A stretch of DNA of 64,000 bases, from positions 558,001 to 622,000 of the forward strand of contig NZ_JAPZSV010000003.1 in NCBI RefSeq assembly GCF_027532185.1, in the 5' to 3' direction. A model generated the notes under the pieces. The model saw nothing but the letters and a program-made list of their open reading frames with translations, did not search any database and was not told where the DNA came from. The stretch comes from Hylemonella sp. (GTDB taxonomy: Bacteria > Pseudomonadota > Gammaproteobacteria > Burkholderiales > Burkholderiaceae_C). Made by a program: the position numbers and the translations under genes. Shown here piece after piece: positions 53,234-53,572 of the stretch. Positions within the stretch are counted from its first letter, which is position 1; each line of letters opens with the position of its first letter.

Positions 53234-53323
53234 GGAGAGGTGGCAGAGTGGTCGAATGTACCTGACTCGAAATCAGGCGTAGGGGCAACCCTACCGTGGG
53301 TTCGAATCCCACCCTCTCCGCCA
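53234..53323 (+). tRNA. tRNA-Ser (anticodon CGA)
   Basis: A 90-nt class II tRNA. The acceptor stem pairs GGAGAGG (53234-53240) with CCTCTCC (53313-53319), discriminator G and encoded CCA end at 53323. Anticodon arm CCTGA-CTCGAAA-TCAGG gives anticodon CGA (53268-53270), reading UCG. A long variable arm and a GTTCGAATC T-loop are present. The last 15 bases are the attachment core of the prophage that follows. Confidence 0.97.
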
Positions 53324-53572
53324 GCCTGCTTGACTCTTCTTGAGTCGCTTCAACAGTGGGTTGTCTTTCTCAGCTTCCAGCGCTGCGATCGCTATCCAGT
53401 GCTCCGGGTCTTCTCCCAATTCCATAGCAATATTCCCAGCGAGCACGGGGCTTAGCCGCCCTTTCTTCTTCGCCATGGAGAACGCTTCCGGGGTGATATT
53501 GAAGTCTCTTGCCCATGCGGAAGCGTGCTTCACCGCAAGCGCTTTTTCGAACAAATTCATCGTCGAATGCAT
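53291..53572 (-). CDS. DUF3693-like phage regulator, C-terminus altered by integration
   Basis: A 93-aa protein starting at 53572 with AAGGGG upstream (an ATG at 53560 is possible). AWARDFNITPEAFSMAKKKG and LSPVLAGNIAMELGEDPEHW resemble DUF3693 phage proteins, which often sit at the regulatory end of inoviruses and may bind DNA. The last ten residues, WRRGWDSNPR, are read from the antisense of the tRNA-Ser gene. In the circular phage the frame would run through the same core to the stop at 63258-63260, giving 133 aa. Palindromes upstream suggest autoregulation. Confidence 0.7.
   Translation of the reverse strand: MHSTMNLFEKALAVKHASAWARDFNITPEAFSMAKKKGRLSPVLAGNIAMELGEDPEHWIAIAALEAEKDNPLLKRLKKSQAGWRRGWDSNPR
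53309..53323 (+). repeat. attL core (15-bp direct repeat)
   Basis: CCACCCTCTCCGCCA, the tRNA-Ser 3' end with CCA. Identical to 63396-63410; flanking bases differ on both sides. The core also lies inside the minus-strand repressor-like gene. Confidence 0.9.

Follow-up and report, generated by a model that had tools for sequence, protein, structure and literature searches.

The window, as we refer to the complete 64,000-nucleotide stretch of Hylemonella sp. DNA that was analyzed, contains a filamentous prophage of 10.1 kb, which is bounded by a 15-bp repeat and inserted in a tRNA-Ser(CGA) gene (Table 1). The sequence CCACCCTCTCCGCCA is the longest exact repeat common to both prophage ends, and it represents the final 15 bases of the tRNA gene, since ARAGORN placed the 3' end of tRNA-Ser(CGA) at the last base of the tRNA-side copy. 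The genome that contains the window was the only one of 399 from the family to carry the distal core with its phage flank, which was also absent from the viral contigs searched. Along with genes for a replication initiation protein and a Zot-type assembly protein, the prophage carries the gene of a small serine recombinase, the probable integrase, whose product ends in KPGHSSLR. Homologues of this recombinase lie close to the att site in many relatives, whereas in the window prophage two ORFs intervene. A ParB-family protein is also encoded within the prophage (59310-60608, minus strand). No Pfam, PHROGs, PADLOC or NCBIfam family matched the accessory gene adjoining the distal att site within the thresholds applied.

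Table 1. Features of the prophage and its attachment site (positions are those of the window)
Feature	Position	Strand	Basis or remark
tRNA-Ser, anticodon CGA, host	53234..53323	+	ARAGORN
Regulator ORF, 93 aa in prophage	53291..53572	-	ORF crosses att core
att core, tRNA side	53309..53323		exact 15-bp repeat
Degenerate third copy of operator-like repeat (80%)	53591..53605	+	repeat likeness
Operator candidate 1, CTAAC-N5-GTTAG	53627..53641	+	exact repeat
Operator candidate 2, CTAAC-N5-GTTAG	53651..53665	+	exact repeat
Filamentous-phage replication initiation protein	54038..55231	+	Pfam Rep_trans, phrog_453
Zot-type assembly protein	58154..59293	+	Pfam Zot, E 2.9e-14
Small serine recombinase, probable integrase	60686..61267	+	Pfam Resolvase, E 1.2e-40; 193 aa
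Accessory gene, 449 aa, adjoins distal att	61936..63285	+	no family assigned
45-codon tail plus stop after core, circular form	63258..63395	-	paper join at repeat
Weak terminator-like hairpin in tail, poor T-run	63359..63377	-	pattern scan
att core, distal side	63396..63410		exact 15-bp repeat

The att core is crossed by a small minus-strand ORF, to which we refer as the regulator. It had been described as 93 aa long in the integrated and 133 aa long in the circularized state, and recomputing its coordinates and ends gave the same result. In the prophage the protein ends WRRGWDSNPR, the final part being antisense to tRNA-Ser and residues 89-93 (DSNPR) being host encoded; when the element is circularized on paper at the repeat, the frame stays open and reaches a stop at 63258-63260. 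The 3' end of the accessory gene overlaps the last part of this tail on the opposite strand, and the regulator and recombinase genes are likewise on opposite strands.

An earlier label of the regulator as DUF3693-like found no support. The window protein matched no Pfam family at E ≤ 0.1 or at E ≤ 1, and DUF3693 was absent from the families matched by 16 aligned members of the regulator family, in a search whose HMMER filters remove most weak matches. In PHROGs, the window regulator matched PHROG 31301 (DNA binding protein; E = 2.7e-34), a family matched by 16 of 16 aligned members, with PHROG 638 (transcriptional regulator) matched by 15 of 16. Its structural model consists of six helices with a mean pLDDT of 83.6, comprising a helical domain at approximately residues 4 to 67, a less certain helix at residues 72 to 89 and a disordered end (residues 91 to 93, below 50). 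A Foldseek search of the PDB with this model yielded nothing useful (best match, E = 0.99). Judging by the profile matches and the predicted fold, the regulator is probably a small helical DNA-binding protein. The motif CTAAC-N5-GTTAG has two exact matches in the window against 0.01 expected, and similar inverted repeats precede the regulators of L053 and L013 (two of the five relatives inspected, the L numbers denoting regulator loci), with other repeats upstream of the regulator in L052, L001 and L077. The regulator is thus likely to be a self-regulating repressor, acting on its own promoter through these predicted operators. Two regulators of the family had no matches in phage records.

Using a family profile, we found the regulator in 20 of 399 family genomes and in 1 of 399 order genomes (its own), as well as in 1/6, 4/103, 7/47 and 12/101 genomes of four genera; the family, order and genus sets overlap. 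A search with the single protein in its own genus gave matches in 6 of 26 genomes, which were strong only in its own genome and in G017. With further loci taken from viral contigs and genome contigs, 106 regulator loci were oriented, including a few duplicates (such as L014 = L049 and L015 = L068) and leaving out L004-L012, L016, L029-L048 and L116-L135 as short copies, duplicates or nonrelatives. The core sequence TGGCGGA was present at the 3' end of the regulator in 23 of the 106 loci. None of these 23, with related and duplicate loci counted, had a stop ahead of TGGCGGA, which was read as Trp-Arg in all but L061, where it lies in another frame. A regulator frame that runs through the core is therefore a recurrent layout. 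Among the loci scanned, ARAGORN confirmed a tRNA-Ser at the core for the window and nine relatives. One genome (that of L054) contains a second regulator copy, L055, which ends SWRRL; no tRNA was present within 17 kb of it, and its position is perhaps a secondary integration site. A distal core was looked for and not found in L054, L055, L060 and L143, and these loci are not among the rebuilt forms described below.

The attP site was rebuilt for 11 tRNA-Ser prophages, in 7 of which the host supplies an immediate TGA where the phage codon is TGG, TCG or TTA. The integrated regulators of the window and L013 end in DSNPR, that of L137 stops at the contig end after TG, and L061, with its other frame, changes by only 2 aa (106 versus 108 aa). 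Filamentous phages with small serine recombinases have also inserted repeatedly at a second place, the hrcA-nadK intergenic region (for example, in L138, the only locus at which the neighboring genes were assigned with NAD kinase and HrcA models). Of the nine prophages rebuilt there, eight end no more than 1 codon from the crossover, seven of them through a change of TAC to TAA; L141 is the exception and has no immediate stop. The rebuilt free form was longer in 9/9. A single genus accounts for 4 of the 9 prophages, and the empty site, with the sequence ATTTTA[AG]TGATGTAATTT, was read in 32 of the 47 genomes searched from that genus; the crossovers of the other 5 prophages were placed by shared bases only. 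In nadK-type attP sites (L021, and L138 by eye), the recombinase gene seems to end at the crossover too, so that two convergent genes meet in attP. Over both sites, 18 of the 20 rebuilt prophages have an integrated regulator of 86 to 93 aa (L137 is cut at 87 and L061 has 106), and the free forms vary in length between 98 and 157 aa. The expectation that integration shortens the regulator and gives it a new end thus stood, and it extends to the relatives, in which the host often supplies the stop at once.

The run-on was also directly visible in free-looking contigs. Terminal repeats such as those of circular genomes were present only in L076 and L089 of the 12 inspected, and in 10 contigs the crossover was set by likeness to the rebuilt forms, least surely in L076, where the end is not TGGCGGA. 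L083 is an exception: a TAA is retained with the recombinase directly behind it, and this free-looking form therefore keeps its stop.

The tail of the free form had been proposed to be a conserved functional part. Among 31 attP forms, the distance from crossover to stop ranged from 0 to 69 codons. Past the window core, the three frames first meet a stop after 45, 24 and 56 codons, and the 45-codon openness of the window tail alone is unremarkable by chance. In the 31 forms, the first stop of the regulator frame came on average after 33.2 codons, the two alternative frames giving 28.5 and 33.1 (Wilcoxon p = 0.14 and 0.63), and by means or medians no unusual openness was seen either in 12 forms or in 31. 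Substitutions were analyzed in two sets of relatives. L062, L137 and L077 have a gapless 50-codon tail in common; where it overlaps the recombinase gene, regulator codon position 1, which is recombinase codon position 3, takes 19/27, 17/25 and 18/28 of the substitutions, position 3 leads in the regulator body (38/78, 47/99 and 41/92), and the 32 bases ahead of the recombinase gene change at all codon positions. This tail appears to be conserved because the antisense recombinase gene overlaps it, and we dropped it as proof of a switch. The tails of L053 and L142 differ by six substitutions (4, 2 and 0 at positions 1, 2 and 3), which give no sign of constraint. With lengths that vary and substitutions that track either the recombinase gene on the opposite strand or no codon position at all, the proposal was not borne out; a comparison of homologues had been suggested to look for conserved coding past the core, and the two sets of sufficiently similar relatives showed none. 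As far as the relatives' tails were tested, the tail is probably an untuned run-on.

One result favors the opposite view. Early stops, less than 10 codons beyond the crossover, occurred in 1 of 31 attP forms in the regulator frame and in 24/62 cases in the other frames (p = 0.0001); with one form per tail cluster, which removes shared descent only in part, the counts were 1/26 and 21/52 (p = 0.0004). Such depletion is what a selected tail would predict and tends to count against a simple run-on. It may be explained by shared descent and, in the nadK group, by the antisense recombinase gene. In DNA without an antisense gene, the early stops of eight tRNA-Ser representatives numbered 0/8 in frame versus 4/16 in the other frames (p = 0.17), and their stops per codon were 6/221 versus 9/448 (p = 0.81). 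Ends like those of ssrA tags were rejected as a general feature, with two final residues from A, V, L and I in 6 of 31 attP forms in frame versus 2 and 6 in the other frames; the free form of the window ends QRK and is not ssrA-like.

Several published systems are similar in part. The Ralstonia phages phiRSM1 and phiRSM3 are filamentous, use a small serine recombinase and have a repressor gene beside attP (PMC3816273, PMC4471427), the attP core 5'-TGGCGGAGAGGGT-3' being the 3' end of tRNA-Ser in reverse (PMC3816273). The window has both the small serine recombinase and a core equal to the tRNA-Ser 3' end in reverse orientation, and the core printed for phiRSM1 equals the first 13 of its 15 core bases. 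By the published description, attP separates ORF14 from ORF15 in phiRSM, and integration is stated to leave the repressor unaltered (PMC3816273), whereas in the window attP lies inside the regulator frame (93 versus 133 aa) and two ORFs separate the recombinase from the att site. A switch of this kind in a filamentous phage had been taken as new, and such novelty is not supported: in the Ralstonia phage phiRSS0, attP is described inside the 3' end of the regulator gene ORF13, whose product is shortened from 156 to 130 aa upon integration, losing 26 aa through a new stop, with differing roles proposed before and after integration (PMC3816273), and in the Xanthomonas phage XacF1, it is described inside ORF12, a possible regulator which is split upon integration and whose 5' deletion destabilized the prophage (PMC5666396). 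According to these descriptions, phiRSS0 uses XerCD at dif and XacF1 dif/XerCD, unlike the window with its serine recombinase and tRNA-Ser core. We found no published report of attP in a regulator combined with a serine recombinase at tRNA-Ser, a weak negative in a search that mostly excluded subscription journals. The window layout is best read as a new combination of known arrangements.

The sequence-only reading had also drawn a parallel to mycobacteriophage immunity. In BPs, attP lies in the repressor gene and attB in a tRNA gene, the prophage form is shorter, and a codon becomes TGA through a host base adjoining the core (PMC9262239); the long form (136 versus 103 aa) is described as degraded (PMC4557955), and the tyrosine integrase is cotranscribed with the repressor, both with ssrA-like tags (PMC9262239). 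On the basis of these accounts, the parallel held for an attP site within a putative repressor gene, an attB site in a tRNA gene and, in relatives, stops made by one host base. It failed for the tags, with neither the viral-form regulator (QRK) nor the integrase (KPGHSSLR) of the window having an ssrA-like end, and for the operon, the window genes being on opposite strands. Lacking the tags, the operon and the integrase type, the window was therefore not classed as BPs-type immunity.

From the prophage anatomy, the two reading frames and the recurrence of the layout, all of which were observed directly, we lean with modest confidence towards an integrated filamentous phage with a phiRSM-type integration module, in which integration supplies the end of the regulator and the tail of the free form is most likely an untuned run-on. 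Its module would consist of a small serine recombinase and an attP core matching the tRNA-Ser 3' end. The regulator would be transcribed towards attP, its last codons being the left half of the att site, and the phage copy would therefore have no stop of its own before the crossover. Integration would provide the end, as DSNPR and a stop in the window, directly as TGA in most of the tRNA-Ser relatives that were rebuilt and directly as TAA in most prophages at hrcA-nadK. In the free phage, the frame would run on, in many cases antisense to the convergent recombinase gene, until it met a stop by chance, and the tail would at most make this form somewhat different or less stable. Selection, we infer, acts on the short prophage form. 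That neither protein end matters, and that the ORF end is ordinary packing of a gene against an antisense tRNA, appears quite improbable to us: endings such as DSNP(R) do recur in L013 and L060, and the model leaves the final residues disordered, but diverged relatives read into the core in a conserved frame, with no stop before it in any of the 23 core-bearing loci.

A selected switch, in which the free phage would make a long regulator that is unstable or inactive and the stop gained by integration would yield a short active repressor, as in BPs, is a tentative alternative that we consider distinctly less probable than our preferred reading. The tail would need only to be present, without a conserved sequence. 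Stops supplied in the regulator frame at two unrelated host sites are consistent with such a switch, as are an attP codon that mostly differs from the host stop by a single base in the rebuilt forms (TGG to TGA, TAC to TAA), the run-on of at least 10 codons in 30 of 31 free forms with its depletion of early stops and the BPs precedent for the single-base route (PMC9262239) and for degradation of the long form (PMC4557955). However, tail length and sequence are not conserved, the window tail ends in QRK, the free-looking L083 retains its stop, the two forms of L061 are nearly equal in length (106 and 108 aa), and L141 has no immediate stop. In several tRNA-Ser phages, moreover, the base that breaks TGA also helps to form an inverted repeat of the attP arms (by eye), which would be a reason at the DNA level. 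A bolder proposal seems rather unlikely: these filamentous phages would hold the repressor a single base away from a stop codon at each of two unrelated attP types, only the stop gained from the host on integration would switch it on, and the arrangement would have arisen independently of the mycobacteriophage systems and work through a nonspecific run-on tail or nonstop mRNA with no conserved degradation tag. Very improbable, in our estimation, is a nonstop switch, in which a free-phage terminator just past attP would end the regulator mRNA before any stop codon, the protein would therefore receive a tmRNA tag, and integration would rescue it by supplying a stop. Using a simple pattern scan of 14 forms, we detected a hairpin with a T-run in the regulator direction ahead of the stop in L013, L052, L056, L072 and, weakly, the window, and one overlapping the stop in L067. 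Yet the window hairpin folds no better than shuffled sequences (z = 0.50), the hairpins of L137 and L077 sit past the stop, and the scan listed none in L053, L061, L062, L142, L076 or L001, the last of which ends at a contig end; in L076, a hairpin with six T ahead of the stop was seen by eye. A terminator before the stop was thus rejected as a general feature of the scanned forms.

If the arrangement is selected, coupling of repressor and integration arose again in filamentous phages, by way of stop supply at tRNA-Ser and hrcA-nadK, and the pairs of natural forms are a ready set for testing it. If it is not, the locus is a clean example of an att site overlapping a gene end without any switch and a warning that conservation of a tail can stem from a gene on the opposite strand.

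A third group of relatives carries in the regulator 3' end a sequence that we take to be dif-like, with varying frames. Between the regulator domain and this core, L024, L028, L101, L102, L106, L107, L110 and L113 have a Gly/Ala-rich hydrophobic stretch (such as MVRKFLTGAALAG), which looks like a membrane or signal segment.
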